Below, piece by piece: positions 14,923-62,242 of a stretch of 64,000 nt of DNA; within the stretch, counting starts at the first letter, position 1; each line of letters opens with the position of its first letter. The notes beneath the pieces were generated by a model that had not been told where the DNA came from, did not search any database, and worked only from the letters and a program-made list of their open reading frames with translations. The DNA comes from Seiridium cupressi. Lineage: Eukaryota > Ascomycota > Sordariomycetes > Amphisphaeriales > Sporocadaceae. Both the position numbers and the translations under genes were made by a program. The stretch is from contig JARVKI010000030.1 of assembly GCA_036674765.1 (NCBI GenBank), positions 124,001-188,000 on the forward strand, given 5' to 3'.

Positions 14923-15414
14923 GCTGCAAGTTGGAAGGATGGGTTGGGGGTTATCTTGCAGCGATTATCCCATGAAAGTGGGATGAAGTCTGAACAGAAA
15001 CGGCAGTAGTGGCATAAGGTTCTTGTTCTTTGCCAGAGTTTTCGTTCTCTTTTGGAATGGGGATTTAAATGTTGTCGGCCACTTTCGGTCATATCCGGTC
15101 ACATTCGGCCACTTCGCAGGAACGGGACGAAAGCCTTGTCGGTTCAGCCTTGTCTGTCTTGCCGGTGCCTAAGATTTGGAGATCTAATAATAAGAAACTC
15201 GGCTTCGCATATTGTCAGTCGTGCAGGTCACAATGGTGGTAGTAGCCTGAACTTGTTTGGATCATTATATAGATGTTTTGTCTTGTTTGTCTACCCCACA
15301 TGGTTCCTATAGTACAGCAACTGCTTGCCTACACTAGTGCTGGGCGTTGATCTCTGCAATCTGCCACCAATCAGAGTCCCAGCCCCTACGTCCCCACAAA
15401 ACACATCCCCTACC
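14923..15414. other. Divergent promoter region (MFS / hydrolase)
   Basis: Shared upstream region of the minus-strand exporter and the plus-strand hydrolase. Around 15075-15115 the sequence carries spaced repeats of a cggccact/cggtcacat type (TCGGCCACTTTCGGTCATAT and the following copies). These could be regulator sites, although no binding site is proven. Confidence 0.35.
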
Positions 15415-16707
15415 ATGTATCCCTTCTTTACATATTCACCAAATCGTCACTACTTCGAATACAAATGGTACAATCTTGAGTTGCTGCGTTTGCTGGGTGC
15501 CGCACCCTACGGAGGCTGCGATGCTGCCGAGTTCCTGGAGCTCGTGGCCTCCCTTAAGCCTAATGACCCCCAAGACTGGAACCAGAAGTTCTTGGCCCTC
15601 GCTGAGCACATGCAGGCGAGCAGCCACATAGCGGCCGCCAGGACCGCCTACTTGCGGGCCAGCAACTACTTTCGCTACGCCCAGTACTTGTTCTCAGTGA
15701 TGCCCAAAAGCGACCAGCCGTTCTTCCTATCGCTGTACCACCGCAGCATCGCGAGTTTCGAGCAGGCGGCCAAGCTGATGGACCACGAGGTCCGTCGTCT
15801 TCAAATCCCTTTTCTGCCGCCCGAGTACGGCGCTGCATCCGTCACCATGCCAGCCTGGCTGCACCTGCCCCCACCCTCCCGGCTACTTGATGGGCGTAAG
15901 ACACCTGTCCTGATCTGCATCGGCGGCGCCGACTCAACTCAGGAGAAGCTGTACTTCCTCTCGGCTGCTGATGGGCCGGGCCTTGGGTACGCGGTGCTGA
16001 CCTTTGACGGGCCTGGACAGGGTCTTGTGCTGCGGGAGCAGGGCGTGCCGCTGCGACCTGATGGCGAGGTCGTCCTGGAAGCGGTCCTGGACTTCCTCGG
16101 CGCATACGCGGAGGAGCATCCCGAGGCCCGTCTAGATCTCGATGCCATTGCCGTGACCGGTCAGTCGCTCGGTGGCTACCTGGCCCTGCGCGCCTCGGCC
16201 GACGCGCGCATCAAGGCCTGTGTCGCCGTGGACCCCATCTATGACTTCTATGGCCTCGCCATGTCACGCATGCCGAAATGGTTCATTGGGCCGTGGAAGC
16301 GCAGCTACATGGCCGACTGGTTCGTCGACTATGCTGTCGTCGAGCATGCCAAGCTGGACGTGGCCACTCGCTATACTTTTGCCCAGGGCATGCAGATGTT
16401 TGGTTCCTACAGCCCATCGCAGATGATTCGTGACATGAGGCGGCACAGCTTCCGCCTCGACAAGACCACCCTCGCCAATGGCACCCGTGACAGCCGCGAT
16501 TACCTGGAGTGGGTCACTTGTCCTGTGTTGGTCACCGGGGCTGCCGGTGACCTCAAGCTGTTCTTGCCCGAGATGAGCACCTCGGCCATCATGGGGAATC
16601 TCGTTAACGTCCCGGAGGGCCAGAAAGAGTTATGGATTCCTCAGAAGTGGTCTGAAGGTGGGGCGCAGGCGAAATCCGGCGCCTGGCCTCTGCTCCAGCA
16701 CTGGTAG
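15415..16707 (+). CDS. Alpha/beta hydrolase of PKS-NRPS (cytochalasan-type) clusters
   Basis: A 430-aa single-exon FrsA-like alpha/beta hydrolase. It begins with an N-terminal helical cap (FEYKWYNLELLRLLG, ARTAYLRASNYFRYAQ) followed by the hydrolase core. Motifs are IGGADSTQE, TFDGPGQG, the nucleophile elbow TGQSLGGYLAL (Ser251), a likely acid in GAAGDLKLF (Asp379) and a possible histidine at the very end (His429). Such hydrolases (CcsE, PyiE and relatives) sit in cytochalasan clusters, where they act after release of the PKS-NRPS product; that assignment is from gene content and family resemblance. The ATG at 15415 (TACC-ATG) was chosen over the upstream in-frame ATG at 15325. The protein ends abruptly at LLQHW, so a short C-terminal piece may be missing. 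Otherwise it is uninterrupted. Confidence 0.78.
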   Translation: MYPFFTYSPNRHYFEYKWYNLELLRLLGAAPYGGCDAAEFLELVASLKPNDPQDWNQKFLALAEHMQASSHIAAARTAYLRASNYFRYAQYLFSVMPKSDQPFFLSLYHRSIASFEQAAKLMDHEVRRLQIPFLPPEYGAASVTMPAWLHLPPPSRLLDGRKTPVLICIGGADSTQEKLYFLSAADGPGLGYAVLTFDGPGQGLVLREQGVPLRPDGEVVLEAVLDFLGAYAEEHPEARLDLDAIAVTGQSLGGYLALRASADARIKACVAVDPIYDFYGLAMSRMPKWFIGPWKRSYMADWFVDYAVVEHAKLDVATRYTFAQGMQMFGSYSPSQMIRDMRRHSFRLDKTTLANGTRDSRDYLEWVTCPVLVTGAAGDLKLFLPEMSTSAIMGNLVNVPEGQKELWIPQKWSEGGAQAKSGAWPLLQHW

Positions 16708-25708: not shown

Positions 25709-26827
25709 TCATGACTGTACAGGTACAGGTCTTCCACCTTTGCTTTCCGCAACGGCGTCTCCGCGCTTCAAAGCCATGGCCTTTTTGACCTCCCATTCCC
25801 AGGCAGTCAAATTTTCATCCTCGACGTCCTCAGCCGTCGCAGGACTGCCAATCACTCTCCTCATGCTAGCACTACGCTGTGGTCGAACCAATAGAGCCAG
25901 ACTGTAACGATCAACAGAGCGCTGTTGACCGGGGGCGTAATAGACACGATGGACGTTGCTCCGTAGCAAGCCCGCCGTCCACTGGACCATGACATCGCCG
26001 AGGTTAACAATCAAGCAGCCCGGTTGCGGACGCACCCAGAGCCAGGCATTTTCGTCCGTAGCGGCCTTACCAGGCGCGAGGATCTGTAGACCACCGAGCA
26101 CGTTTGCGAGGAGTGTGACAGTACCAAAATCGCTGTGGTGAATCATACTAGTACGAAGGTCTGTGGGGTCTGGGCTTGCGAATGATTTGATGATACGTAC
26201 GACTGTGCCGGACTGCTCGCTGGGACTTTGTCGGGATGTAAACGTATCCTCCGGTAGGTCTAATTGAGTCGCAAGAGTGGAACAAACATCTGCAACTACA
26301 GCTTGGCCGTGCTTCAGAAATGCCTGGTATATTGGCAGATGAGACTTAAGAAGGGGCGGGATTTGTTGCATTGGAGTAGTTCCCATCAGACCGTCCTGGC
26401 CCATGTTGAACCATTCAAACCGATCAGGCTCATCCGTTTCGGTCTTGGCCTGACCACGTGGTTTAAAGCTAAGGATATGAGAACATGCTACACAATTGAG
26501 ATTCTCTCAAATACAAAGGGATCTTGCTTACCCAAGGAAACTCTTGGGTATGTCATGAAGGTACTGATCCATCAATTCCCGAGGGAGATTGAAAAGGTCT
26601 TTGCCTACTCCGAAAAGTTGATCAATTTCTTCTGTCATAGCCTCACCAAATTCGTCATTGCGCAGGTCTAGAAGGAAGAAACCAAGCTCTTGACAGGCTG
26701 CAAGCAGCCTTTTAGCGGCTGTTCCATCTTTTGCTCGAAGGTCAGCCAGAGGGATGGTATGTATGGGTGCAGTCTCAACTTCCTCGGGGAAAGGGGGAAC
26801 ATCGATGAAGAGTCTTTCGGAGGCCAT
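25709..26827 (-). CDS. 2-oxoglutarate/Fe(II)-dependent oxygenase (IPNS-like)
   Basis: Predicted 351-aa soluble oxygenase of the isopenicillin-N-synthase-like superfamily. Two exons, 26532-26827 and 25709-26468, join in frame (intron GTAAGC...TTAG, 63 nt). The N-terminal DIOX_N region has CQELGFFLLDLRND. The jelly-roll core carries the H-x-D iron ligands in HHSDFGTVTLL (His210, Asp212), the second histidine in SNVHRVYY (His272) and the 2-oxoglutarate-binding RxS in DRYSLALLV (Arg286, Ser288). GGLQILAP is the usual strand after the first ligands. All catalytic residues are present, so it should be active; the substrate is unknown. It stands alone in this window. It is not the source of the fragment at 8.5 kb, whose sequence differs. 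Confidence 0.9.
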
Positions 26828-30971: not shown

Positions 30972-32703
30972 CTATAATACATATCGAAAGTTGGGTCCGT
31001 AGTTTTCCGACGCAGGTTCGTACCTTTCACCCTTTATCACCAGGCCATGCTTACGGTCAAGTCTGGCATTTTCCCAACAGAGGAGGAATCTCTGGGTCAG
31101 AGCCAAGATAGCCGAGAAGAACATGAAGGCGGCACATATGCTCATGCCCTCGACGTACCTGGGAGACTGGCTGGTTGGAAACACATTGGTACCCAAGAAT
31201 GGACCATATTGGCCAACTAGGTTGATGAGGACAATGGACATGCCGCGTCGGGAATCACTGCCTTGATTATCTGCAAAATAGAAAATTTGTTAATGATATC
31301 TCTTTGATTTTCTCCAAGGTCCACTTACTCAGAGTCAGTCCCAAGATATTGGGAATGGTCGCAAAGACACCTGCAGAGGCTAAGAAGGTGGCAAAGTAGC
31401 GGACGCCGACAGTATCGACACAAGCGAGAATGATGTAGCCGATGCCTCCAACAGCCGAGGTGACGAAAAGAACGAGACACCGCTGCTGTGTTCTGTCTGC
31501 AATCCACGTAGTGATCAAGGCGAACAAGAATGCCGCAAACGAGGGAGGTGCCGACAGGCCCTGAGCATCGATAGCGGTATAGCCCATATCTTCAAGAATG
31601 GTCGGCAGGAACACGGGGAGGCTGGAATAGCTGACATTTCCACAGAAGTACATGAGACCGCAGATCCATGCCTTGACATCGATGAGCAGAGGTGGAACCT
31701 CTTTCAGCTTGAATCCTCCAATCCTAGCGTTTGCATCCGTTCCGACTTGTCGCATAGCCCTAGCACGTACCACTTCCTTCTCCCCGGCATTCAAGAATCG
31801 CGCCTTCTCTGGCGAGTCAGGGATGAAGAAAAACGCGATTATTGCCATTGCGACGGTCGGAAGCCCTTCGACGAGGAACAGCAGGCGCCAGTTAGAAAGA
31901 TGTGCATGTCCGCTGGTAATACCATAGGCCAGAGCACCAGAAAAAGTAGAAGCTAGTGGGGCTGCGGATGCGAATAAACCGCAGCGAAACCCGATCTCAT
32001 GCCGAAGGTAGAAGAAAGACAGAAGATAGATGATCCCAGGGCTGGTCGTGATACCTGTCAACAAACGTCCGGATGCTGCAGCGATTTGTCTCTGCGTAGA
32101 GCCACAACTTACCCATAGCATGCTTCGAAAGCACCGAGCAGAAATCGAAGTGCCATCATGCCATCCCAGCTCTGTGCTCCGCTTTGCACCGTGGCAATCA
32201 GGCCCCTGTGTGACGGTCAGATTTCACGCGCAATGACCATGATATCTCGGGTCAGACTCACCATCCAAATACGACGACAGTTCCAACGAGGTGCGGAGGG
32301 AAGATCTTCCAAAGCACCACTCCAAACTCGGCAACAACATAGGCGATATAGAATATGTTGATGAGCCACTGATATCTGTTGCCAACGAGATTGAGGTCTT
32401 GGCTCATGCCAGCGATCTTGGCATTGCCTATATTCCCTCGGTCGAGGAAGGCCAGCATATCTTTGTAAATTGTTAGTGTGCGCGTGGCTTGGCGGATTGC
32501 TGACATATTCCAGTAGGCTACTCACATAGCACGAAGAATAGTGTCATTAAGTTCAAGTCAAGCTTACGGACGACGCGCGCCTCCTGAGCTTGACTGTAGT
32601 TTCCGTCAAAGGGCAATGCGTCGGCTGATCCACCGGGCTGTACAGCTATGGACTCACCAGCTTCCAAACCGGCGATGGACTGCTCCTTCTTTGATGAGCC
32701 CAT
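30972..32703 (-). CDS. MFS transporter, anion:cation symporter (allantoate permease-like) family
   Basis: Predicted 493-aa, 12-TM plasma-membrane uptake permease for small organic acids or vitamins (Dal5/Tna1/Fen2-type family). Five exons join in frame: 32526-32703, 32262-32460, 32113-32205, 31329-32041 and 30972-31270, all with GT-AG introns. Key blocks are VVRKLDLNLM with FFVLY before TM1, MLAFLDRGNIGNAKIAGM, FLLGAFEACYG joined across an intron to PGIIYLLSFFY, and the cytosolic loop with FFFIPDSPEKARFLNAGE. It ends with the usual hydrophilic tail YGPNFRYVL. I chose the acceptor at 32042-32043 because it alone restores the TM4-TM5 motif. There is no break, so it is likely functional; the transported compound is unknown. 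Confidence 0.88.
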
Positions 32704-34492: not shown

Positions 34493-36149
34493 ATGCCTTC
34501 ACTTGAGCTCACTGCGGAGCAGAAAGCCCATGCCGACGAAACCCGACAGCCGGAACTCTGGGGCTGGCTGATTTGCTTCATTGTCATCTGCAACATCTTC
34601 GTCATTGGCAGGCTATGGGGAACGTGGATATCAGTTTCGAATCGTTCGCGCGTCATTGCCGAAGACATATTCATCGCCTTGAGTGGAGTGAGTAGTACAT
34701 TCCCGGGGGTTTTCTTCATTCTAGGGACTTATGCAGTCACCAGGTGCTCCTCAATGTCATCATCGCCAACTTGATGTTAGCGACGCGTTACGGACTTGGC
34801 CTGCATAATTATGCCGTCAACGCGAAAGATGACAACTATCCATCGAACTTGTCGAAAACATTCATGGTAAGTTGCATCGGGCACATAGACAGCCCTCGAG
34901 GTTATTGTTCGATTCTGAGTATGGGCTGATACTACGCTTGTGGAAAGCATGTCTGGATTACCATGGTTCTCATGAGTAGCTTCTTCGTGTGCATCAAGAT
35001 GACGCTACTCCTCTTCTATAGACGGCTATTCATACTTTCGTCGACAGGCATGCGCTTCTTTTGGTGGGCAAACCTGGTGTACATTCTACTATGGTTCTTC
35101 GGCGGAACCTGTTTCTACCTGTTTCAGTGTAAGCCAGTACAGTGGTATTTTCTTCAATACTTTGCCCGTGCTGGCAAGCCCGTACCGGGAAACATGACTG
35201 GCCAATGCGATGCTACGACTGTCCTCCATGTTTCTATGCCGATGATTTTCAGCCTCATTTCCGATGTCTCTCTACTAGCTCTGCCGATTTGGGCTATATG
35301 GAATCTAAGACTGGAAAAGAGAAAGAGGATGGGGTTGATAGCTGTCTTTGGCATCGGTCTTGTCGCTTGTCTGCTGGAACTAGCGCGCATTCTAGCACTC
35401 ATCATTGACACAGATGATAAACTGGATCCCAGTTGTGAGTCGTTGTCCCACCATCTCAGGAATTTCCGAAGGATCCTTTCTGTTGCTTCCTCAATCATGA
35501 TCTCTTGGTTTTCTGACACCTGTCGCATACAGATGGCGTTGCCGTGTTCCTGATCCTCACAGCGGCCGAGGAGACCACAGCAGTCGTGTGCGCGTGTCTG
35601 CCCGTTATCGGACCCCAGTTGTACAAGTACACCAAGTCATTCCGGCGCAGGAATCGAACCAGCCACTCCTATGTGAAGAGCGCAGTGCCATCGAGCTTGG
35701 ACGTGACAAGCGGGGGTAAGTCCGGTAGCCGGAACTGGCGGAGTAAACACAGTTTCCGGCGCGTCTTCAGCGTAAATCATATTCCGACGACGATGGGCGC
35801 TGGGTTGACGAGGCTCGATGGCACGGAGGTCGGCGATCACATTCACCTGACTAGTATAGAGGCGAGCCGGCCGATGTCGAGCCCGAATCACAGCGACGGC
35901 GGTCTTGAGCCGTCGAGAACCCGCGAAGATGACGTCGAGAGGGGAGGGTTTCGTTCGCAGAGAACTCCTAGCGATACAAAGGGAACGCGGAGAGCGGAAC
36001 CCCCGGCATCAAACACGATCCATGTACGTACGGATGTCGAAGTGGAAGTAGGCCAGAGGACCGGGAGTCATCGCAGCCCAAGGCGTTTATCTTTACAAGC
36101 CCTCTCCTCACCAGAATACCCAAAGGTTCGAGCCTACCATGAGATATAG
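34493..36149 (+). CDS. Fungal rhodopsin-domain integral membrane protein
   Basis: Predicted 473-aa protein with seven membrane segments at about 22-43, 55-80, 108-130, 141-166, 197-225, 234-257 and 270-291, then a basic, Ser/Arg-rich cytosolic tail of about 175 residues. Exons 34493-34687, 34744-34866, 34948-35434 and 35533-36149 join in frame. Family marks are the CKPVQWYF block, DVSLLALPIWAIWNLRLEKR and GIGLVACLLELARI. Such proteins are very common in Pezizomycotina and are relatives of Pth11-like receptors, but this one lacks an N-terminal CFEM domain. A sensing role is assumed for the family; no ligand is known. Intact as read. It is followed by the divergent context of a ribosomal protein gene, so no pathway link is evident. 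Confidence 0.85.
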
Positions 36150-44609: not shown

Positions 44610-46004
44610 TCATCGTATTGATGGTGTGGCTTGAAGAGTTTCCAGACGCGCTCGCGCCCAGGCGCCATACCCTGCAAATAAGCCAACGTGTTTCCACTTG
44701 TTGCAGAGCTTGACTAGAGACTCGTAGCGTTCAGTCACGTAGGCCTCTTTCTGCAATTCACCGCCCGCCCGTAATTCCCCAGCCACTGCATGCGTGATCT
44801 TGCTAAGACATACTGGGCACAAGTAAGGTGGTTGCCGCACGTCTTCCGCCATGCCCGCTGTGCCTTGCATCACACAAGCAAAGTAATTGCAATGGCCGAT
44901 CCCAAAACAGTGGCCAAGCTCGTGAGACACCGTCCGTACGAGGCGAGAGAACCAGAGACCTTGGCTAAATTCAGGGCCTACGCTTGGAATGGCATTCTCG
45001 GCTGCGTCGATCGCGGCCCGAATTGGTGATGACATAGGGGGTAGCCGTGATGACGCCTCGTTCACGATCTCCATATACTCTCCTTTGCAGAGACTATCGA
45101 TGTGAGACTTACAATGAGACAACGGCCACATATGTGCGCGATCAATATCTTCGAATTCATCAAGCAGTGGATGATATCGTGCTGTGGATACAACACAGAC
45201 TCGACTGCCACCATATGCTCTCCCACAACAGAAGTCGTCGTCCTCATCTTCGTAAAGGTCGTGATCTACTAGGAGTATGATTGCATAGGCGTCCTCGGGA
45301 AGCAGTTCAATCGCCGCGTCTAGAATGTCTTCCAGGTTCAACTGCCCCGAGAACAGCCCGTCCGGCGACGGCCTAGCTCGGACGCGCGTACAATTGTTTC
45401 CTCTAGCCAGCCCAACATATCTTTCTTTGCTCCCTGGAGTTTTATGAGACCACGGGACGAATTTCAAGTGTTCTCTGAATGGCTTGACAGTCATCCCGTG
45501 ATAGAACGCAGAAAGGTAATCGATGAAGTCCTCGTCAAGCAGCACTCCGCCATTCTCGGATGCTGTCGCAGTCTTGATCTTACGACGACCATTTGGAAGC
45601 TTTGGCTCAAGCCAGGCCTTCATATGCCGCATCTGCGCGGTGATGTGCGGCACAGCAGCCACGTAGAGGGTCTTCTGCCTCTTGGTCGGCTTGTTGCGGT
45701 GACCCTCCAACAGCCAGGATCGGAAACTCTGACAAGGGTCCTTGGGATCCAGAGCCAGGTGATCACCAGGTAGAACCAAAGGACCCGGAAAGGCGACTGA
45801 GAGCTCTGTGGCAGACCTTGCAATATTGGACACGAGAGTCCTATCCCCAACTCCTTTGGCCACCAACGGATTGCGACCGGATCTGGTCATGGCTGCTAAT
45901 CGCCGATCGGCATCAGGGCGCTGAAAGCCCGCTACACTAGCGTATGCCGAAGTCTCATGTTGCAGTTCGGCGTGAGGACAGCACTTTGACTTGGGCATTG
46001 TCAC
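44610..46004 (-). CDS. Archaemetzincin-family zinc metallopeptidase (AMZ-like)
   Basis: A 464-aa single-exon protein. The metzincin zinc site is HELGHCFGIGHC (His361, Glu362, His365, His371), followed by the archaemetzincin-specific cysteines: C372, C377 and a C-P-V-C pair (C396, C399) that bind a second zinc. The methionine turn is represented by CVMQGTAGM. The N-terminal third is Arg/Lys-rich and not conserved in kind. The middle has the LVDHDLYEDEDDDF and GRAYGGSRVCVVSTARY core that precedes the active site. Archaemetzincins are intracellular peptidases with unclear substrates. All ligands and the general-base glutamate are present, so I expect activity. The start could also be the ATG two codons later. 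Confidence 0.9.
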   Translation of the reverse strand: MTMPKSKCCPHAELQHETSAYASVAGFQRPDADRRLAAMTRSGRNPLVAKGVGDRTLVSNIARSATELSVAFPGPLVLPGDHLALDPKDPCQSFRSWLLEGHRNKPTKRQKTLYVAAVPHITAQMRHMKAWLEPKLPNGRRKIKTATASENGGVLLDEDFIDYLSAFYHGMTVKPFREHLKFVPWSHKTPGSKERYVGLARGNNCTRVRARPSPDGLFSGQLNLEDILDAAIELLPEDAYAIILLVDHDLYEDEDDDFCCGRAYGGSRVCVVSTARYHPLLDEFEDIDRAHMWPLSHCKSHIDSLCKGEYMEIVNEASSRLPPMSSPIRAAIDAAENAIPSVGPEFSQGLWFSRLVRTVSHELGHCFGIGHCNYFACVMQGTAGMAEDVRQPPYLCPVCLSKITHAVAGELRAGGELQKEAYVTERYESLVKLCNKWKHVGLFAGYGAWARARLETLQATPSIR

Positions 46005-48271
46005 TGCAATGGCGGGCGGGGGAATGCGATCAGACAGTAACCCTATAACACTTCAAGTATGAGTGAAGAAAGGGAATTCAGTCTGCGGCGAGGCATAATC
46101 AGATGGAACCGGCATGTTAAAAGCGCGTGAGCTAGTCATAGTCATCATCGGTAGTGCTTAGGCAGAAGCCCGTCGCGATAAACAGACGCGACCTACCATA
46201 GTGGGGCACACCGCCAACACAATTGGCACTGCCACCTGCTATTTAAAACCCCAATAGCGACGCAAATGAAATTGTTTCAAAATTGATCAGGTTTCCATAC
46301 AAATCTACCTTTCACATTGTATCAGGTACGAATCATTCTTTGGTAGTATGGTAGTTGCTTTAATTACCATTGCCTCACAGAACCAAAGTTTGGCAGTAAT
46401 TAAGTGTCATTTATAGTTCGAATAATATGCCTAGTATTTACAATCAGCCTGGTGATTATTCATGATCACTCAAGAATTTTCTTAATTACCAGCTAATTGT
46501 AGATGACGAACCGTCTGTACTCAAGTATGGATGACCGGCACCATCGAGAGATCCATCATACGTTGGGCACTTTAGTCATCAGATGACTTATCACCAACGT
46601 GCCACCGAGTACGCCTGAGTAAGGTTCTATGGGCATGAGTAACAACATCTACACTAGTCCATCGACGCCAGAAGCACAAGATTACGTGGCCAGCGCACCA
46701 AGTAATGAAGCAGCCAAGAGCGAGAGCTTCATGCTATAATCCAACATCGATTCAAGCTTGGAGGATGGACCTGTCTGTTAAAGCGAGGATGTCTGGGACG
46801 AGTTCCAACTCCCCAGCCAATTATTCGTGAAGGCTGTTTCCCATGAGCATAGGACGATCGAGGCTCCTATTTAAGTGAGTGGCTTGCGAGTTACGATACA
46901 GCTGCCCTGCAAAAAGTTGAGAACTTAATTGCTGATGGTATGAGTAAGCATCTGTGATCGCTCTGAGTCCGAGGCTCTGGTTTCATTTTACGATGCTGGC
47001 GGACCATCTATTGGAGAGATGAGGAACCAATGATACTACGCGGACTAGGCTATACTGGGCGAAGAAATTGTAAAGCGCTGATGCTTCTATTATTGAAAGT
47101 TGTGAGATATTGATTCGTGTTCACAGGGGTCTGTTAGCTGCGAACCGTCGCCCAGTCACCTAACCTGTACACATACTTCCACCACCGTATATGACCATCA
47201 GCCGTCGAATCGATCTTTTCAAGACCCCGAATTGACCATGGTTTTCATGGCATCGGTGCTGTACTCTCTGTTACTATCAGCATTGTGGCAAAGGCGTCTC
47301 AATAGCATATTTCTTTGGACAACCGCATAATTGATGGTACGACGGCCCATAGCGACGATTTTAGTGTGATTCATGTAAGATTCGAGGGTAAATGGCCATT
47401 GCCTGTTCGTCCGAAATAAAATAATAGGATATGACTGAGTATTACCTTAACTTGCGTTGTATAGCAGTATTTGATGTGTAGCTTAGCCACTGTCACCAGG
47501 ATATAGACTAAACCCGAGGACCCGGGGCGAGTATATATACCATGCACGTCTGTAAGCTTTGTGTGCCATGTCTCTCTACATTGCCACGTCACTGCTTGAT
47601 AGGGGCCAGCCCAAAGCCTTTGACTTTTCCGGCTTTCATCAATATTAGCCATTCCCCGAAGAAAGCGGTCCCCTGCGGTTGGCATTGACAATCGCCAGAT
47701 TAAAATAGCTACTTTGGAAACGTATCTGCTTATTCTTTGCTACGTGAGAAAAATTCGAGTGAAATCAACCGAGATGGTAGAGCTTGGGGCACTGTTGAGG
47801 GCAGTCATGGAAGGATCATCCATTAAATTTCTTTGCCAGAACCAATCTGGTTTCAGTCTGATAGAGACAGAATGCGCATTTCATCAGTAAGTGGTGCGCG
47901 GCGGAGAGTTGAGATCATATGTCGACGCCTCACTTTCAAAAGAGTTAGGATTGACGATAACACCTATCTGGAAGTTTCGAGGTTCACAGCGTGGTGGACG
48001 GGTGTGCGTGCAGTTGCAACTGGTCCCACGAAGCCGTTCCGATCACCGCGGAATCGGAAAGCAGTGGGGTCGCGGGGTTGCCAGCAGCAGGCGGATAGCG
48101 CCGGCATCTGCCCCCGCGCTGTTACGGTTTGAGAGGCAGCTTCTTGCTGGCGTAGCAGAAAGTATAAGTCGGAGACCTTGCAACGCAGCTCGTGGTTCTC
48201 GGTGATATCAATCGAATATTGCTACCTGCTAGAGTTCGTCTAGGCCTCGTGAAAGGCAAATACCTATCAAA
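46005..48271. other. Gene-poor stretch with a possible unidentified coding relic
   Basis: Mostly AT-rich. From about 46627 a plus-strand frame (MGMSNNIYTSPSTPEAQDYV) continues, through several in-frame stops, into SNIDSSLEDGPVC, SEDVWDEFQLPSQLFVKAVS and later EALVSFYDAGGPSIGEMRNQ. The composition looks like a real but decayed protein of no family I know. Nothing else is recognised up to the fumarylacetoacetase promoter. Confidence 0.3.
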
Positions 48272-49600
48272 ATGTCAACCTGGGTCCCAGATGTGTCGCC
48301 CGAGAGCCCATTCTCGTTGGCTAATATTCCCTTCGGCATCATCACAACGGAACACGACTCGACAAAACGCGCTGCAATTGCAATCGGCTCATACGTGGTG
48401 GATCTTAAGGCGCTGTCGCAATCGAAGAGTCTCATCCCGGGGCAGGATGATGTATTTAGCCAACCCACACTGAATGCCTTTGCGGCTTTAGGCAGGTCAG
48501 CCCATCGGGACGTGCGCAAGGTACTACAAGACATTCTGGCCTCTGATACAAAGTATGCCGAGGCATTAAAGGACAACGAGGAATTGCGCCAGAAGGCCTT
48601 GATCCCCCAGAATAAGGTGAAGCTGCACTTGCCCATGAGCATAGGCGACTACACGGACTTCTACGCCGGCTACAACCATGCGTACAACGTAGGCGTCCTG
48701 TTTCGAGGACCGGCCAATGCTCTGCAACCCAACTATACACACCTACCTGTTGGCTACCATGGACGTGCTTCCAGCATCGTGGTCTCGGGGACGCCCATCC
48801 GTCGGCCGTGGGGACAGATCCTGCTCGACCCGACTGCTGAGCCGAAACAGCCAACAACAGCCCCATGCAGGCGACTGGATATCGAGTTGGAGCTGGGATG
48901 CTTCATCTGCAAGCCAAACCCGCTTGAAGATCCCATCGCAGTTGAAGATGCAGAGGAGCACATCTTCGGTTATGTGTTACTAAACGATTGGAGTGCACGG
49001 GATATCCAGGCATGGGAATACGTGCCGTTAGGTCCCTTCAACGGCAAGAACTTTGCTTCGACGATCAGCCCCTGGGTAGTCCTTGCAGACGCGCTAGAGC
49101 CATTCCGAACAAAGGGGCTGGAGAACAAGACGCCTCTCCAGGACTATCTGAAGGAGGCCAAAGAAGAGACAGCTCTCGATATCAAGCTGGAGATTGACTT
49201 GACTAGTAAGTCGACTTTGCTCTCGGGGATATGAATAACGCAATGCTAAGAATAGACAGCGCCCGAAGGTGACACAACCACGATAGGCACCACCAGCTCC
49301 AAGCATCTGATGTGGTCGTTCCCACAAATGATCGCGCATCATACGCTAGGAGGATGCAACCTCAACACAGGGGATCTGCTGGGGTCAGGCACAATCAGTG
49401 GCACAGAGCCTTCTGAGAGAGGAAGTCTGCTGGAGATGAACGAGGGCGGGAAGAGGGATATTATGATTGCGGGGATGAACGTGCGCAAGTTCTTGAAGGA
49501 TGGCGACACCGTAACACTGCGTGGTGTATGCGGGAAGGAAGGCGGGAAGGTGGGCTTTGGTGATTGCACGGGAACCATCTACTCTGCCATCCAGAGATAG
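48272..49600 (+). CDS. fahA: Fumarylacetoacetase
   Basis: A 424-aa cytosolic enzyme that splits 4-fumarylacetoacetate to fumarate and acetoacetate, the last step of phenylalanine/tyrosine/homogentisate breakdown. Exons 48272-49205 and 49260-49600 join in frame; I used the acceptor at 49258-49259, which gives LTTPEGDTTT. Motifs: SIGDYTDFYAGYNHAYNVG with Asp129 (metal) and His136 (catalytic base), PVGYHGRASSIVVSGT, RRLDIELELGCF (metal-binding glutamates) and LLNDWSARDIQAWEYVPLGP. The C-terminal half has GGCNLNTGDLLGSGTISG. All residues are present. The usual partners (homogentisate dioxygenase, maleylacetoacetate isomerase) are not in this window. A zinc-cluster regulator follows on the same strand at 50.5 kb. 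It could be the only copy or a secondary one. Confidence 0.93.
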
Positions 49601-50478: not shown

Positions 50479-53232
50479 ATGGATCTCCTGGAAAACCAGG
50501 TCAACGACCTGAAATACCTTAGCCAGAGCGCCATCACCCCCCTGGCCGAATCGACTTGCTTCACGCCGCAAAGCGCTGCCTCTCCCGTTTCCGCGGTCGG
50601 CCATAATTCCGCGCAGCATCACCAGCAGGGTCAAGCTTCGAGCTCATCCGACAACAATGCAGCCACAGCTGCTGGCCACAAAAGAAAGGATATAGATGAC
50701 AGCCCCAATGCCGGCAGTAAGCAGCAGAGGAGCAAGCGCAATCGGTACATCTCCATCGCCTGGTAAGTCGGACTGTTCTCTGGCGTTGCTGCAGTCTTCA
50801 CGTGGTTCTTGGCCTTCGGTCAAGGTCAATCGAGACAAGTGCTCTCTCATAACACTTCACCCGGTCCCACAGAATCCCTGGCAGCTGAACCTTGACTGCT
50901 ATCGATTCAACTGTCAGCTGTGGCTCTCATTTTCTCGGTTGTATATCTATGCTGGGTCGTGGTGCTAATATCATCCCCGTCGCAGTAACGAATGCAAGCG
51001 TCGCAAGATCAAGTGCAACGGTGAAACACCATGCCAGCGATGCGGCAACCTCAACCTGCAATGCCTTTACGCGCCGAACTGCTGTACCAACAACTTCAAA
51101 GACTCAGAGGAGTTCAAACAGATGAACAACACCGTCTCTCGCCTCCAAGAACAGGTCGAGACCTTATTCAGCAATCTCAATGCCCTCCGCTCTGAAACCT
51201 TGCAGCTAGCCCCCATCCAGGCCCACGATAGATCATTGCCTCTGCCCGCTACAGCGACTGCAGGAACACCGTCTTCCTCAACGTCGGGCGGCCCTCCTCA
51301 CCGAACCGATCTTGCCCTTACCCGACAGCCTCCTGGCTTCAGAGGTCCTACCAGCACAGACTTCAGTCTCGACGTCGCCAAGAATACTCTCCACAAGATG
51401 GGATATAGTAATTTGGGAGAAGAGGTGCCTGACGACAATGCTACTTCCCAAGACGGGACGCCGGGAACCTCGCCAATGCTGGCACCACTTGGGACCCAAC
51501 AGCAACAGGCCTCCCCTGATCCACTATGGGAGTTTGACAAAGACGAGATGATACGACTGTGCCGGGTATACGAGGAGGAGGTTGGCATCATGTACCCGGT
51601 GGTCAGAGTCGAGACGGTCGTGAATCATGCCAAAATTCTGTCTTCGTGGATGGAGGCTGCAAGGAAGCACTTTCTAAACGGCGGACCGCCTGCAGCTCAG
51701 GGTCACGGCATATCGGACCACAAGACTATAATACTCAAGCTGGTCATGTGTAATGCTCTGATCATTGGGGAGGAAGCTGACAGTAACAAGGCCATTAGGC
51801 TTTTGGAAAGCATGCGGCCCATACTGGACAGGATGCTCATGAGCGACCCCAGTGATGTCGGAAACCTGCCCCTTTTAGCTCTGCTGGGCGGCTATCATTT
51901 CCTGGCTAACGACGAAGTACTGGCCTGGAGGGTCATTGGACAATCTCTGCGACACTGTATCGAGCTCGGTCTCCACCGACGAGAGGCCATCTTGCGAATA
52001 CCTGACGAAGAAGACCGCCGCAACGCTATACACACATTCTGGAGTTCGTATGTCTTGGACCGTAGGTGGAGCTTCGGTACAGGTCTGCCATATGTCGTGG
52101 CAGATGATGAGATTGACCCGAATCTTCCCCTGCCGGTAAGTGATCGCGATTCTCCATTGTCTTGCGCCCATTTGACTTAGACAACTAGGATCAACACCCA
52201 TATCTCGTAGCCATGATATCGTATTCGCAGTTGAGCACTAAAGTGTGGCGCCTTGTCAGGCACTTCGAGCCCAATATGGCAATCGATCTCCGCCAAAATG
52301 ATATCGAAGAGCTTGACCATCAAATCAAGCAATGGTACACAGAAGTCCCGGCAGAAGTCCAATTGCAGCTCCCAGATTGGGAATCAATGCCGCCTGATAT
52401 CAAGTCGCCAATGCATTCACAGAAAGAATACAACATCCAGCGTCTTCAGATCTGGACCTATTTACGTCTCAACCAAATCCGAACCTGGTTGCACATGCCC
52501 ATTCTGCACACCCATAGCAGTATCATGGAGAACATCCGCGGCGCTGAGCGAGCTGTCAAACTTGCTCAAAATACGATCAAGTACCTGACTCACCTCAATA
52601 GCACAACGAACATCTATCGCAAGATCCAAGTCTTCTACCACCAGTTCCTGGCATCAGCCATCGCTGTCTTGTTTCTCGCTTCCTGTCATGCTCCCGTCAA
52701 CTTCAGTGCCGCTTGTCGCGACGAGTTCTACATGGCTCTTGAGCTCGTCCGCGACCTCAGTACCAAGTCTTGGGTTTCGCAACGGCTCTGGCGTACCATC
52801 AAATCTCTCAAGGAAGTTGCGCCACGACTTGGGCTTGCCGAAGCCGACGATCCGCACTCCAGTGCTGCATTGGCCATGGCTGGATTGGCCACGGGACATC
52901 TTGCGCAGGCGCCTACAACCCCAGCAGGTTCTGCTGCCCCATTTGCTAGGCCCGTGCCGACGAGTGCACCAGGCAGTGCCGTGCCAGTGGTCGATGGCGC
53001 ACAAAATGGATGGCAGATCTCCAATGAGATGTCGAGAATTTTTGAAGGTTACACGGGCATGAACGGCTTCCCGCCGCCTGCCCTTGACCCAATGGGAGAA
53101 CCGAGCCGTACGGGTACCGAGCTGACGCAGCCTGTTCCCGCTGACGATGGCGCGCCAGTCGGGCCTTTTGGTGTTCCCGTGTCAGGACCTCCGATCGGAA
53201 GTGTTTATAGTCACTTTAGGGACATGTTCTAG
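50479..53232 (+). CDS. Zn(II)2Cys6 transcription factor with fungal-specific domain
   Basis: Predicted 825-aa nuclear regulator. Exons 50479-50762, 50986-52135 and 52189-53232 join in frame (introns GTAAGT of 223 and 53 nt). The zinc cluster CNECKRRKIKC-NGETPC-QRCGNLNLQC (Cys95, 98, 105, 111, 114, 121) has the canonical spacing and is split by the first intron just before its first cysteine. It is followed by a short coiled segment (MNNTVSRLQEQVETLFSNLN) and a Ser/Pro-rich linker. The fungal transcription-factor domain spans about 280-700, with the signature LRHCIELGLHRRE and DRRNAIHTFWSSYVLDRRWS. The C-terminus is Pro/Ala/Gly-rich. The first ATG in the frame was used. Targets are unknown; the nearest metabolic genes are fumarylacetoacetase and the MDR oxidoreductase. 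Confidence 0.88.
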
Positions 53233-53870: not shown

Positions 53871-54908
53871 CTACATAAGAAATTCAGGTGTCAGATGCAA
53901 TATTTGACTTTATTGTCAACAGCTTCGGAGTGAGCTTCCCCAGACACACATCGTGATCACATATTGCACGCTTTGAGAACGTCGCTACGGCGGATGCGCG
54001 ATTGTTACATGCTGCATAAGACCTCGTGCGTCCTTCCCGGGATGCCATCGTGTGACCCCTTGGGGGTGGGCGAACTACATGTACCTAAGGCCTGGGATCC
54101 CTTCATGTCGCAATAGGTGCCTCTAGGCACGATATTTCAGCACCAAATGCGCCTTAGCGTAAAGTTTCCAGGGCCCGCCCGGCGACGCGTAAACCTGAAT
54201 CAATGCCCCCCAGTCCTTGTGCCACGCCACATAATGTAGGTTTAACCAATTAATCTATTTTAGGCAATGGCTGCCTGTGCTCATTCTTGTTTTGGTCCAG
54301 TATATGAGGACTCTTGGGACAGGTAGCGTGATTCCTGTGAATTCATCTTTCTCGCTCTCATTCCATCGCTCGCTGACCAGGTCAGTATCACCATCGCACG
54401 GGCTGCTTGTTCACTATACGCTTAAGATCTATGGGATAATCCCAAGGCCATTACACCGGCCCGTAGGCATTGTTACTCGTCTTTTCGGGAAGTCCATAAT
54501 GCACAAAAGTCTCTATTAATATCGCTCTGGGATTTGTAGGCAAAGAGCGCGGTTTGTAAGGTGCTCATCAATATCTCTCTGTCAGGAATAGCTCGTGTCG
54601 CAAGATGCCAAGCTGAGTTCAGTAACTCTTTCGAAGACTGGGATGACAACAGCAGGGTTTCCAACTCACAGTCATGCAACGGATCAAGTGCGGAACACGA
54701 TTCGGGGTCTATCCGATTCACGCAATCGTCATGTCCGCTCAATCGGAGTCATCCGGTAGTGCGTCCGATTTTATCATTGTCCGGCACCGATCTCCAGGCG
54801 ACTTGCATATTTGAATTGGCTCGTCGTTTCATTGGGGCTGGACTTCACATGAACGTAGAGACTGGAAAGACACAGAGTACAGTGTACCCCCCGAGCCGAG
54901 ATCTCAAG
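53871..54908. other. Intergenic and upstream region of the MDR gene
   Basis: The MDR frame is open back to 54561, but the 116 codons before 54909 have no family similarity and are probably untranslated leader. Nothing else is recognised apart from the possible lost exons of the 53.5-kb gene. Confidence 0.4.
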
Positions 54909-55955
54909 ATGAAAGCAATTGTACTACACGCTCATGGTGGTCCCGAGTCCCTCTCCTACGAAGAGGTCCCAGACCCCATCCCGGCGGCTAATGAAGTCCT
55001 TATTCGCGTCATAGCAACTGCTCTGAACCATGTCGACATCGACGTTCGCAACGGGACATCAGGTGTGGAGTCGAGCCAGAGTCTCCCTCATGTTCCCGGC
55101 GTCGACGCCGTCGGAGTCGTACAGTCTGTTGGGTCCTCCGTGTCATTGTGGAAGGAAGGAGACCGAGTGGCACCACACTTCATTTTGCCATGCAGCAAGT
55201 GTCCCAACTGTCGTGGCGGTCGGGAGAATATCTGCACAGCCTCAAAGATCCTTGGACTTACCCACTGGGGTGGATATGCAGATTTTGTGTGCGTTCCCGA
55301 GCATAATCTCGTCGGGATTCCTAATGGTGTAGGCCTCGATGAGGCCGCTGCGGGGATGACTCCATTTTCGACAGCCTGGGAGGCACTGATCGTCACGGCG
55401 GGCTTAAAGGCCGGCGAGACTGTGCTGATTACCAGCGCTGGCGGCGGCGTAGGCAGTCATGCAGTGCAGGTCGCTGCACTGGCCGGGGCCAAGGTCATCG
55501 CGTGCGCTGGGGCCGATTATAAGATCGAGCGGGTTAAGGAGCTTGGTATGGCGGACGAAATCGTGAATTACAAGAAGGAATCATTGGTTGCAGGCGTTAT
55601 GAGGGTCACTGGAGGAACGGGGGTCGACGTGGCCTTTGACGGAATCGGTGGGCAGATCCTCAAGGACTGCATTCAGTGTCTGACCGATGGCGGTCGCATC
55701 GCGAGTATAGGAGCCCACGGCGGTGAGGTGGTGGACATTGACATGATACAGTTCTTCCGAAAGCATCTGACCATGCATGGCTGTGGGCGGTCGACCAGGG
55801 GGACCATGGCGAAAGTTCTGGATTTGATGGCTAGGCGCAAATTGGTGCCCATCGTCGACCGAAAGTACCCATTGAGGCAAGCAAAAGATGCGCATGAGGT
55901 GATGGAGGGACGAGAGTTCTGTGGAAGGATCCTACTTCTACCCAATTGCCAATAG
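54909..55955 (+). CDS. Medium-chain NAD(P)H oxidoreductase, zinc-dehydrogenase type
   Basis: A 348-aa single-exon MDR enzyme. The N-terminal GroES-like domain has VLHAHGGPESLSYEEVPDP and ALNHVDIDVRNG. The four-cysteine structural-zinc lobe is LPCSKCPNCRGGRENIC. The Rossmann domain has TSAGGGVGSHAVQVAALAGA and DVAFDGIGG, and the C-terminus ends with FCGRILLLP. The ADH catalytic-zinc ligands are replaced (NHVD in place of the usual Cys motif and GVDAVG in place of GHE), as in quinone-oxidoreductase-like members that keep only the structural zinc. It probably reduces an activated carbonyl or enone with NADPH; the substrate is unknown. The ATG at 54909 fits relatives. It is different from the LovC-like reductase at 11 kb. 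Confidence 0.87.
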   Translation: MKAIVLHAHGGPESLSYEEVPDPIPAANEVLIRVIATALNHVDIDVRNGTSGVESSQSLPHVPGVDAVGVVQSVGSSVSLWKEGDRVAPHFILPCSKCPNCRGGRENICTASKILGLTHWGGYADFVCVPEHNLVGIPNGVGLDEAAAGMTPFSTAWEALIVTAGLKAGETVLITSAGGGVGSHAVQVAALAGAKVIACAGADYKIERVKELGMADEIVNYKKESLVAGVMRVTGGTGVDVAFDGIGGQILKDCIQCLTDGGRIASIGAHGGEVVDIDMIQFFRKHLTMHGCGRSTRGTMAKVLDLMARRKLVPIVDRKYPLRQAKDAHEVMEGREFCGRILLLPNCQ

Positions 55956-58134: not shown

Positions 58135-58791
58135 AATCAATTAAGACTTGTAATCCCGTGTTCGTACGGCGCGTTATATATTTCGATCATGTTTCATGAT
58201 TTGGAACAATGAAATTACTCGAGTAAGTTAAGCGCATTATGAACTGAAGTCGTTATATTACAGAACTTTCCATCCCACTATACTTTCTAAACAGAGAAGA
58301 GCTGCGTCTCCAACCACCACCGTTGAACGCCTCTCGAATGTCGCATGGAAATTATAAGCCGTAAGACAGAAGGAGCAGATGATCTAAATGAAAGAGGATT
58401 TGTAAAATTACATTGTCCTTCAGTTCCTAAGCATATCAGTGTATGTTCCCATTTCCTCGTGACTTGTCATCGCGTTCGTGCAGTGTGTAGCGGTCATCTC
58501 TCCCCTCCTCCACTAGCTCCTTCGCAATCTTTTTTTTTTAATCTCGTAAAAGAAAGTGGGTATATGATGATAAGTACAACGTGACGCAAGCGTCACCATG
58601 GTTTAAGCACCATCCCTTTAGAACGCGTCAGGAATTCGCATTCGAAAGATACATGTGTATATGACTATTGACGTGGAAAGCAGACATGGTATACAATTCC
58701 ATGACCCTAAATGCACGGAAGGGAAGAGAGGACTCGAGGGGTATATGAGCGTGCAGAGGGGCGGAGGAGAGAAGGAAATAAGGGGGAGCAC
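58135..58791. other. Intergenic
   Basis: About 650 nt, with the 3' end of the F-box gene (plus) and the 3' flank of the minus-strand motif protein. If that protein is spliced at its GTGAGT, its last small exon should lie here, but I could not place it. Confidence 0.4.
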
Positions 58792-59220
58792 TCACAGCAA
58801 AGCCAGTGTCAAATCACCGTGGATTCTGGCCTTCAGCGTAACCTCAACCTCGAGGTTGAGATCTAACCTCAGCCTCAGGGTGTCGCTACCACCACCACCA
58901 CCACCCTTGTCACCACCGCCGGCCACGTTGCTCAGTGCGCCCGTCGCGCCATTGGCTAGGCCGCCCACCGTCTCACCGGCATTGCCTACCGGCAGCATGT
59001 CTCCTGCGCCGCCTAAGCCGCCGAGAGGACCACCATCACCTTGTTGTTCCTTGCCCTTCTGCTTGGTTTTCTGGCCGCGGCGGCGCGGCGGTGGTGCTTC
59101 TTCTTCTTCCGAGTAGTCGTTCTCGTCATATTCTGAATAGTCACTCTGTGCCGGCTTGCGGGAGGCATTGCGGCGTTGTTGGCGGCGGTTGGCCGGCTTC
59201 GAAGGTGATCGTGAAGACAT
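58792..59220 (-). CDS. Low-complexity protein with conserved C-terminal motif (paralog A)
   Basis: A 142-aa protein, basic and disordered at the N-terminus (Arg/Gln/Ser-rich, then an acidic SEYDENDYSEEEE, then PPPRRRGQK), followed by a Gly/Ala-rich region with a run of Gly. It ends with a compact motif of about 28 residues, LRLRLDLNLEVEVTLKAR followed by IHGDLTLALL. The same motif, with only Arg/Lys and Val/Ile changes, ends the protein at 61294-62242. The stop TGA overlaps a perfect donor, CT-GTGAGT, at the same codon position and phase as the donor in the paralog, so the true end may lie in a further small exon. I recall similar C-termini on disordered fungal proteins but cannot verify a family. 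The function is unknown. The N-terminal part looks like a flexible carrier for the motif. Confidence 0.72.
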   Translation of the reverse strand: MSSRSPSKPANRRQQRRNASRKPAQSDYSEYDENDYSEEEEAPPPRRRGQKTKQKGKEQQGDGGPLGGLGGAGDMLPVGNAGETVGGLANGATGALSNVAGGGDKGGGGGGSDTLRLRLDLNLEVEVTLKARIHGDLTLALL

Positions 59221-59926
59221 CTTGTGTATTATTTGTGGTTGCTCAAGTCAAATTGACTATGTGCGTTTCCTTGGAAGGTTTCGCGAAGAGACAGTGATTT
59301 TTTATAGAATATGAATATCAAAGGGTAGACTAGTAGAAAGATGCACTACGCTACAGGAGAGTATTTACATAGGACGCTCGTTGCGATACGAAGCAGGGCA
59401 AAAGGCGGCGAGCAGAACTTGCTCGAGACTATACGTCATACGGGTATTCCCAGCTGTGGCAGAGGAGGTGACGAACCCTGTTTTCAAGCAGATCGAGTCT
59501 TGCCCAAGTAATAGCCATGCGAATGGGAGCATGTCCTTGTCGGTCATGTACGCCGTAACAAGTATCGAGAACGGACAATGACTAGACCCCACTTGCCTAT
59601 CCAAGATTCATGTACGTTGCCCCCCTGCTGTGGGGTGGCTAGATTTACATCATAAACCACCGGGGCTGCTAGTCATGAACAGGGGTGATGATCCGGATGG
59701 AGACAGTGGAGTCGATCCCCATAGTGCTGCGTGTCACCTTTCCCTGTTTCTGAGGCTTGGAAGGCTGGGCTGGTACAAGTCACTGGATGTACCGTGGCCT
59801 TGACACTTGTATCGAAACGTGAACGTCTTGATTGTGAAAGAAAAAAAAAACTGAACCCTGCTTCGCCCAACTCCTGCGCTGGAATGTCAACATAGGTACA
59901 TCGATAAACATTCTAGAAAGTCCCCG
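59221..59926. other. Intergenic
   Basis: Upstream region of paralog A and downstream region of the 208-aa gene, both on the minus strand. No gene recognised. Confidence 0.4.
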
Positions 59927-60621
59927 TCACTTATCCCCGCTGCCACCTACCATCCGGCTACTCACACCTAGCTGGAGCTCCCTGTGTAAGCTAATGTCTA
60001 CAACCTTCAGGGGAGCAAGCCTCTCTTTTAAGGTTTTGGTCTTGTCGTGATAGATGGACCACTCGCCGTCCTTCCCTTCGACTGCGAAGAAATACGGCGT
60101 TTCCTCCAGCACCAGCCATTCCTCGTTCTCAGACCAGTTCCAAGGTCCGATGATGTGCCCTACCGTCTCACCGCGAGGACCATGACGTAGCTCCCCAGTA
60201 TCCTTGTGCGCGTAGATCCAGTGGAGCGCCGGAGGATCATCCGATGCCATGGAGACTAGACCCTGATGCTTCTCTTCAGATGGGTAAGGAAAGTAGAAAC
60301 CGTTGAACCTGTAGCCTGAAACAGGATGTGCGGGGTGGTCTAGACACAGCTATTCAACCGTTGAATGAGCCTAGTTCGTCTATGTCTATCATGTTCGTTC
60401 GAGGGGGAGTAGTTTACCTTGTTGTCTTTGAAGACCACGTTGGCCGTTTGTATGCCGACTTTAGGGTCGACTGCGAAGCCAGCAGTCATATAGAATTTGA
60501 TTCTTTCTTTGGCTTGTTGGTTTTGCTTCTTTTGCGCGTCGATGGCTTCTGCGACACCGATAACAGTGGGTATGGCATCGATCACCAGTAGGCCGAGAGT
60601 GCTCAGGGCAAGAAGCGCCAT
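59927..60621 (-). CDS. Unrecognised 208-aa protein
   Basis: Exons 60418-60621 and 59927-60349 join in phase (intron GTAAAC...TAG, 68 nt). The N-terminus is hydrophobic (MALLALSTLGLLVIDAIPTV, a possible membrane or signal segment), followed by a short amphipathic stretch with AEAIDAQKKQNQQAKERIKF. The C-terminal half has an aromatic-rich, probably beta-structured domain: LHWIYAHKDTGELRHG, VGHIIGPWNWSENEEWLVLE and PYFFAVEGKDGEWSIY. The regular W-G-P-W pattern suggests a defined domain, and I think relatives occur in other filamentous fungi, but I cannot name it. It sits between the two motif-sharing genes, on the same strand as the first. Confidence 0.7.
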
Positions 60622-61293
60622 ATCGTAAAGCAGCCTGCCGACTGGTGTGCAGGGGAATGCCGGGAATGATGCAGCCAGAGTAGGCAGTGTATGGGTAGAA
60701 CGGCAATGGGGAGGTGATCACCTTATGCCTATGCGTGCGCGCTCAAGACGGCTCTGGCAATTCAGAGCCGGGTGTTCAGGGGACTCGGGGCGTCGAACTA
60801 TGGCAGTAGACACGGCTAGATGTACACGGCCAAAAGAAAACAAGCTTTTTGCCGCGGTTGACAGCTAATGCGATTCAAGTCGCGGTGGGATTCTATGGGG
60901 TATGATCTCATTGCCAGCGCCGCACTAGTCGGGGTGGGTATAAAATGGGGACTGGTATAGGGAAGTACCGAGAAGTCACTGGGCCTTCAATAGCATGTCG
61001 CCTCTTGTACCCTGGTCACGGCATGGATCGCTGGATCAGCACTGGTCAATGACTTGATTCCGGGGATAGTTTCCACTAGGCATTGCGTCACTCCTCGTGA
61101 GGTTAGCCAGAGAGAAAAGTCGAGACAATCCTGATATTGGCGAAATGCGTGGAATAAAACAATAAGTGTAGCCGCTAGTGCTTGCGTACATTCCAACACA
61201 ACTTCTATATCCTGAGCCGTTGTAAATCACTTGACCACACCCAAAGTAAACCTTGCCCTTGAATATTTGCCCAATTCATACAAATCAATCATC
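60622..61293. other. Divergent upstream region
   Basis: Lies between the minus-strand 208-aa gene and the plus-strand paralog B. A consensus TATAAAA on the plus strand at 60939-60945 lies 349 nt before the paralog B ATG and may be its promoter with a long leader. No other gene was seen. Confidence 0.4.
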
Positions 61294-62242
61294 ATGAGTT
61301 CGCAAGACGAAAACAAGAACACCCCCCCTCAGGAGGAGGCCGAGGAAAACCAGCAACAGACAGAACAACCAGCCGGCGACAGTGCACAGCAGGAAGAGCA
61401 TGCCGAGACAGATCAGCAAAACGACGACAGTACGAAAGAGCAACAAGACGGCCACGATGGCGTAGAGCAGCGACAAAAAGACGGCGAGGAGAAGCCCCAG
61501 GAAGACAAGCCCCAGGAAGACGAGCCCCAGGAGAAGCCCCAGGAAGACAAGCCAGATCAGTCCTCAAAAGCCCAGGATGGCACCAAGCAAGAGGAGGCCG
61601 ACGACGACAAAGACAAAATCAAAGAAGAGAAGACCGAGGACGACGATGCCAAGGCTGCCTCTGAACCTCGCTCACCATCACCCAAGAAGGAGGTCAAGAA
61701 GGAGTCCAGTAGAGGACCGAAGAAACAGCGCGCTGAATCGAGGCAGCCCGCCGAGTCCAAGCAGCGCGGCGAGTCCAAGCGACGCGATGTTGCCACAGAC
61801 GAGAAGCCGCGCCGCAGGCGCCGCAATGCGCCGTCGTGGATGAGCGAGCAGGAAAACGACGATTCGGCCAACGAGAAACAAGTTGCGCCCCGCCGCCGTA
61901 GACAGGCCAGCAGACAGCCCCAGCAAAACCAGCAGCAGCAGCAGCAGCAGCAACAGCAATACCAACAGCAACAAATGCAGATGCAACAGATGCAGCAGCA
62001 GCAACAGATGCAGGAAAAGGACGACAGTGGCCAGAACCCCCTCAAGCTCCGCTTGGACCTGAATCTGGAAATCGAGGTAACCCTCAAGGCCCGTATTCAC
62101 GGTGACCTGACTCTTGCACTCTTGTACGTACTCTTCCTGCCCTTGACTTCCCCCCTTCCTATGCCCTGTGGTTTTGGGATTAGCACTCGCTCTCTAGCAT
62201 GTCAACATCTCACTAAGCATTTGTTTGCGCAGAGAGACGTAA
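61294..62242 (+). CDS. Low-complexity protein with conserved C-terminal motif (paralog B)
   Basis: About 279 aa. From the ATG at 61294 the first 110 residues are very Glu/Gln/Asp/Lys-rich with imperfect PQED(K/E) repeats. A Lys/Glu/Ser-rich and then Arg-rich part (RRRRRNAPSW) follows, then a glutamine tract, and finally LKLRLDLNLEIEVTLKAR with IHGDLTLALL. The frame continues as a read-through to 62262, but a good donor (TT-GTACGT at 62124) interrupts it in the motif's last codon. Splicing to the AG at 62231-62232 gives a three-codon tail and a stop at 62242; splicing to the AG at 62279-62280 is an alternative. Everything before the motif is predicted disordered. The motif is shared with paralog A at 58.8 kb although their other parts are not alignable. 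Function unknown. Confidence 0.72.
61919..62014 (+). repeat. CAG/CAA repeat coding for polyglutamine
   Basis: An imperfect CAG/CAA tract inside paralog B, with a run of about ten consecutive glutamines, then Gln/Met-mixed units. Such tracts vary in length between strains and often occur in proteins that phase-separate or aggregate. Confidence 0.85.

Follow-up and report, generated by a model that had tools for sequence, protein, structure and literature searches.

A conserved 28-residue C-terminal peptide, tentatively a strand-forming assembly tag, in an unnamed family of small fungal proteins

A pair of motif-bearing genes

The window, a stretch of 64,000 nucleotides that occupies positions 124001-188000 of contig C30 in a genome of 45.4 Mb and 228 contigs, contains two genes on opposite strands that encode low-complexity proteins sharing a 28-residue motif (Table 1). 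Gene A consists of an acidic stretch, an Arg/Lys cluster, a G-rich linker and the motif, and gene C of an acidic N-part, the sequence RRRRRNAPSWM, a Q-rich linker and the motif. The intron predicted in gene C splits the codon of the motif's last Leu, and the predicted second exon, whose end at 62242 is also the end of the interval delimited in the preliminary description, would give the protein an -LALLET end that is also found in the database proteins P0010, P0013, P0018 and P0020. Gene A carries a donor-like hexamer at a position equivalent, as judged by eye, to the donor of the predicted gene C intron, and its frame, when read unspliced, likewise stops directly after the motif. The two proteins had been described as having the same 28-residue end and as lying 2 kb apart; the motif is indeed terminal in gene A, but in gene C the predicted second exon adds Glu-Thr after it, and the separation holds for the gene starts (~2.07 kb) but not for the motifs, which are ~3.2 kb apart.

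Table 1. Position and strand of the genes, motifs and open frames discussed in the text (window coordinates).
Feature	Position	Strand	Remarks
Open frame, Abhydrolase_6	15313-16704	+	Pfam
Open frame, 2OG-FeII_Oxy	25712-26506	-	Pfam
Open frame, MFS_1	31270-32223	-	Pfam
Open frame, Fung_rhodopsin	34930-35550	+	Pfam
Open frame, Peptidase_M54	44613-46052	-	Pfam
Open frame, FAA_hydrolase	48233-49231	+	Pfam
Open frame, Zn-cluster transcription factor	50969-52177	+	Pfam
Open frame, zinc alcohol dehydrogenase	54540-55952	+	Pfam
Donor-like hexamer GTGAGT, gene A	58790..58795	-	Overlaps last Leu codon and stop; by eye
Gene A, type A, coding region	58795..59220	-	ATG 59220; 142 aa; TGA 58794-58792
Gene A, 28-residue motif	58795..58878	-	LRLRLDLNLEVEVTLKARIHGDLTLALL; at C-terminal end
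Gene between A and C	59927..60621	-	208 aa; predicted intron 60350-60417, by eye
Gene C, type C, exon 1	61294..62124	+	ATG 61294
Gene C, 28-residue motif	62041..62124	+	LKLRLDLNLEIEVTLKARIHGDLTLALL; last base is also first base of predicted intron
Gene C, predicted phase-2 intron	62124..62232	+	gtacgt...gcgcag; by eye
Gene C, predicted exon 2 and coding end	62233..62242	+	Completes Leu, then Glu-Thr-stop; by eye

The gene of 208 aa that lies between A and C gave no match in a Pfam scan and is probably not part of the motif module. A precomputed PF28325 label is attached to its relatives P0158, P0159, P0163 and P0164, which in deposited models are continuous with type A, and the occurrence of such joined models in Monosporascus, Verticillium and, by eye, Colletotrichum (P0024) suggests conserved adjacency of the 208-aa gene and type A rather than a real fusion. 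In carriers P0140 and P0157 the models continue into segments with the labels PF02666 and PF04082, respectively, and these joins, together with those involving PF28325, are probably fused gene models and not family architecture. Three further, distant matches to the 208-aa gene lie on C12, C198 and C17 of the same genome. Linkage of A and C in another species is also suggested, because the type A protein P0006 and the type C protein P0124 are both listed with a longest contig of 183299 bases. Positions 1-58000 of the window hold 22 open frames of at least 200 aa, ten of which were scanned with Pfam, and eight of these matched enzyme, transporter, receptor or regulator families.

At the protein level the motifs of A and C are identical at 26 of 28 residues, and at the DNA level five of those 26 residues are encoded by identical codons and 57 of 84 bases are common, with six, one and 20 differences at codon positions 1, 2 and 3. 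Because synonymous sites are saturated (pS 0.98, against a dN of 0.086) and most codons differ, the motif peptide is under old purifying selection and was not homogenized by gene conversion; recent gene conversion or duplication of the motif is excluded by the same saturation. The preliminary description had remarked that most third positions differ and had postulated strong purifying selection on the peptide, and both statements are borne out, the synonymous sites being far from equally conserved.

Carriers of the motif and their shared layout

The motif is not limited to the two copies in the window. Three different short queries agreed in locating four copies in the genome, namely A, C, a type B copy on C4 (L003) and a type D copy on C45 (L004), and since the 28-residue query finds them at E values of 4.2e-11 to 8.9e-7, the sharing of the motif is not due to chance. 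All four copies are C-terminal in their open frames, which are 138 to 348 aa long. A type A protein query of the protein database yielded 151 proteins with E no higher than 1, the best 120 of 151 being used, and with the C-terminal 40 residues of type C as query 64 of 65 candidates were confirmed. Among the matches listed, 163 of 164 distinct proteins carry the motif, P0121 being the exception, and these numbers, along with the low dN, uphold the earlier claim of a strongly constrained C-terminal peptide borne by many low-complexity proteins. The chain terminates no more than three residues past the motif in 87 of the 163 database carriers; a further 54 have YV or xV tails that resemble unspliced intron sequence, and the YV... 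tails, found in 46 of 163, resemble a donor left unspliced.

Species names indicate that the carriers are mostly ascomycetes, together with Pleurotus and Backusella circina; Aspergillus, Penicillium, Tirmania and Trichoglossum are among the names, and the higher groups presumably include many Sordariomycetes and also Orbiliales. Backusella (P0133) is the only Mucorales carrier among the matches listed. The species names among those matches, from a search that was not directed at yeasts, include no yeast. As candidate prokaryotic and viral relatives, 39 pattern stretches in bacterial and archaeal genome contigs and 43 in viral contigs were considered, and tblastn confirmed none in either set.

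The sequences preceding the motif (N-parts) were compared for 167 carriers, 163 from the database and four from the genome, and fell into 44 groups with masking and 22 groups without masking, which are probably not independent lineages, the masked and unmasked sets likewise not being independent of each other. When one representative per group was scanned for eight-residue windows with at least five Arg or Lys, an Arg/Lys cluster was present in 38 of 44 masked groups (6.4 expected from shuffles) and in 17 of 22 unmasked groups (4.0 expected), and absent from six and five groups, respectively. The median distance between cluster and motif is 58 residues for the 44 groups and 52 residues for the 22 groups, and the spread of this distance, with the rightmost of tied windows taken, is 12.3 and 10.6 as compared to shuffle means of 50.5 and 53.7; the spread is 27.3 versus 60.1 in shuffles if the leftmost tied window is chosen, and 21.7 versus 55.7 if ties are broken at random. 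The N-parts themselves range from 71 to 325 residues in the 38 cluster-bearing masked groups. They are poor in aromatic residues, and in A, B and C also in aliphatic residues; the proteins are probably disordered. Type A linkers, for instance those of P0010, P0087 and P0108, contain a repeated VGxTAGGLVNxATGALGGVAG-like stretch, which might form an amphipathic helix with an 11-residue period, as in synuclein or LEA proteins.

It had been proposed that the proteins have unrelated low-complexity N-parts. Low complexity and fast change are indeed seen, but not unrelatedness, since 17 of 22 groups have an Arg/Lys cluster at a distance of ~55 residues from the start of the motif. As this cluster is shared, and as a donor-like sequence falls, by eye, in the codon that closes the motif in A, B and C (though not in D), common descent is indicated rather than a tag placed on unrelated genes. 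The pattern suggests one duplicated gene family, in which the low-complexity parts would drift fast and the C-terminal module, ~90 residues long, would retain its layout. Gene A and its closest relative among the matches listed, P0003 of the sordariomycete Neoarthrinium moseri, are identical at 70 of 111 aligned positions of the N-part and at 27 of the 28 in the motif. Across one Mucorales species, Pleurotus and many ascomycetes, a 28-residue peptide barely changes and other parts of the protein change almost freely. Because the motif is near-invariant while the rest drifts, it must do something specific, and it looks like an assembly or docking tag.

Known families and other C-terminal motifs

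The family is unnamed, with no convincing match in Pfam, the PDB or the literature searched. Nothing in Pfam came near the cut-off for A or C; an alignment of 54 members including A (A2) touched three Pfam families through one member each, with a best E of 0.0025. The motif alone had no match in the PDB, and the best E of the A2 profile there, 0.093, is not convincing. None of twelve motif strings, and none of six locus tags or accessions, occurs in the text of the open-access papers searched.

The cargo proteins of encapsulins and microcompartments, although different in other respects, also have a terminal tag that is short and conserved; those tags are bacterial, the likeness is one of description only, and to our knowledge there is no shell for the 28-residue motif. 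Septal-pore targeting, offered as a guess in the preliminary description, finds no support, as no paper searched contains any of the motif strings, localization evidence was looked for and not found, and one carrier, Backusella, belongs to the Mucorales. Hyphae of Mucorales are largely non-septate, and this carrier makes a septal-pore role, itself a guess, less likely as the ancestral one. The septal-pore proteins SPA of Neurospora and SPP of Aspergillus oryzae, both filamentous fungi, in many cases contain disordered parts, and show an Arg bias, but according to the parts of the source that describe them their disordered regions avoid Lys and Gly, whereas Gly makes up 22% of the gene A N-part, and those same parts, unlike what is found for the carriers here, mention no shared C-terminal motif (PMC10023807).

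The amyloid signalling motifs of filamentous fungi (HET-s/HRAM, PP, sigma and PUASM) resemble the motif of A and C in being short, C-terminal and found in proteins of neighbouring genes, and the HET-s unit, in the relevant parts of the sources, has 21 residues versus 28 here (PMC5485727, PMC9815663). By the definition taken from these sources, the effector's motif recurs at the N-terminus of an NLR, the gene of which usually neighbours that of the effector, and the partner has a HeLo or another effector domain. That the motif is a new member of this class, shared by an NLR-effector pair of the HET-s/HRAM, PP or sigma kind, would agree with the short, C-terminal and strand-like motif of the two neighbouring genes and is nevertheless very improbable, for A and C have no NLR or HeLo match in Pfam and the B and D frames have none by eye. 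More generally, Pfam found no HeLo or other effector domain in A, C and the 54 A2 members, and nor did inspection of B and D by eye; no N-terminal motif copy on an NLR was seen, all four genome copies being C-terminal; and a search of the protein database for carriers of 484-1540 aa gave one candidate, and none scored. The motif family lacks the defining features of NLR-linked amyloid motifs for which it was tested.

Strand, docking and helix models for the motif

Conservation was counted over 65 distinct 28-mers, one of which is an out-of-register duplicate from P0123, and appears higher than it is because the database matches contain exact 5-residue words of the query: L5 is found in 65 of 65, L7, N8, L9, L15 and L25 each in 64, L3, D6, A17, G21 and D22 each in 63, and R4 and H20 each in 62. 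Among the more variable positions of these 28-mers, position 10 holds E or D and position 18 mostly R or K; V or I occupies positions 11 and 13, with one and two exceptions, respectively, and there is one exception each to T, Q or E at position 14 and to T or E at position 24. Covariation among motif positions amounts to at most 0.23 bits and is confounded by lineage. Both faces of the motif are conserved, R4, D6, N8, E12, K16, H20, G21 and D22 as well as the leucines.

In the motif of gene A all 14 odd positions are nonpolar (L, V, A, I or G), and the hydrophobic moment has its peak at 180 degrees with 0.934, a value reached by none of 20000 shuffles; at 100 degrees it is 0.033, which 98% of shuffles equal or exceed. 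We infer from this alternation of nonpolar and polar residues the pattern of one long beta-strand, and the motif is tentatively read as a C-terminal beta-strand assembly tag of a widespread fungal family of small proteins. In addition to the strict alternation, this reading draws on the interchange of V and I at positions 11 and 13, the near-terminal location of the motif, the near-constant spacing of the Arg/Lys cluster, the presence of four carriers in one genome, and the conservation of both faces, which suits an interface. The proteins usually consist of an acidic or low-complexity N-part, the Arg/Lys cluster, some 50 residues of linker rich in Q or G, and the terminal 28 residues as the presumed strand, which would not fold alone but would do so when several strands meet, whether from the same protein or from other carriers. 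A small beta-core would result, from which Arg-rich arms could project as a multivalent binder of, for example, RNA or an acidic membrane; beta structure, self-association, disorder and binding by the arms all enter this strand-assembly reading as presumed parts. That the strand assembles disordered Arg-rich proteins into an undescribed beta-cored hub or condensate, near-invariant from a Mucorales species to Ascomycota, is a more far-reaching version and a rather doubtful one. If the motif is an assembly tag, it would represent a common fungal rule for gathering disordered proteins and might be of use as a tool.

Several results do not favour strand assembly. Strand registers showed no significant charge complementarity, 46% of shuffles doing equally well. 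Moreover, positions 14, 16 and 24 differ between type A (P0061, P0063, P0067, P0072 and P0082) and type C (P0140, P0141 and P0150) of what are presumably Hypocreales, so that carriers need not strictly match. Such slightly different residues would be expected if each type had to fit a receptor only, and a docking peptide, taken up as an added beta-strand by one conserved fungal receptor that co-locates the carriers without their self-association, is a possible alternative. Docking would also account for a C-terminal motif with both faces near-invariant in distant fungi in spite of varied linkers, but with 28 residues the motif would be a long beta-augmentation peptide and no receptor was identified, the fungal genome searched being the window's own. 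Strand assembly is for now favoured, with docking to a common receptor close behind.

An amphipathic element that binds lipid, at a membrane or lipid droplet, might also show an alternating pattern. The Arg/Lys cluster could aid such binding, and type A could in addition enlist the V/A/G/T-rich stretch repeated in the linker. Lipid binding is nonetheless improbable, as the polar face is kept residue by residue (D6, N8, E12, D22), which lipid would not require.

Structure prediction gave no reliable model. The AlphaFold2 model of the window protein has a mean pLDDT of 54.4 (~60 over the motif) and no DSSP assignment, and supports no structure; in the model of the two-motif protein P0123 (mean pLDDT 51.7, pTM 0.28) the motifs are not paired as strands and helices at 170-197 and 417-437 cover residues 9-28 of both motifs, with block pLDDT values of 82-92 in the first and 59-73 in the second. 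The modelled helices speak against the strand reading without being conclusive, and would fit a motif whose last two thirds form a helix that acts as a helical dimer or binding element. This possibility is likewise given a low probability: the moment at 100 degrees is no higher than that of 98% of shuffles, the strict alternation and the nearly invariant Gly-Asp within the stretch are at odds with a helix, and the mean pLDDT of the P0123 model is low. P0123 is from Aspergillus terricola var. indicus, and P0069, from Pleurotus ostreatus, likewise has two motifs in a single deposited protein; both may be tandem carrier neighbours merged by gene prediction, in which case they would echo the clustered pair of A and C in the window.
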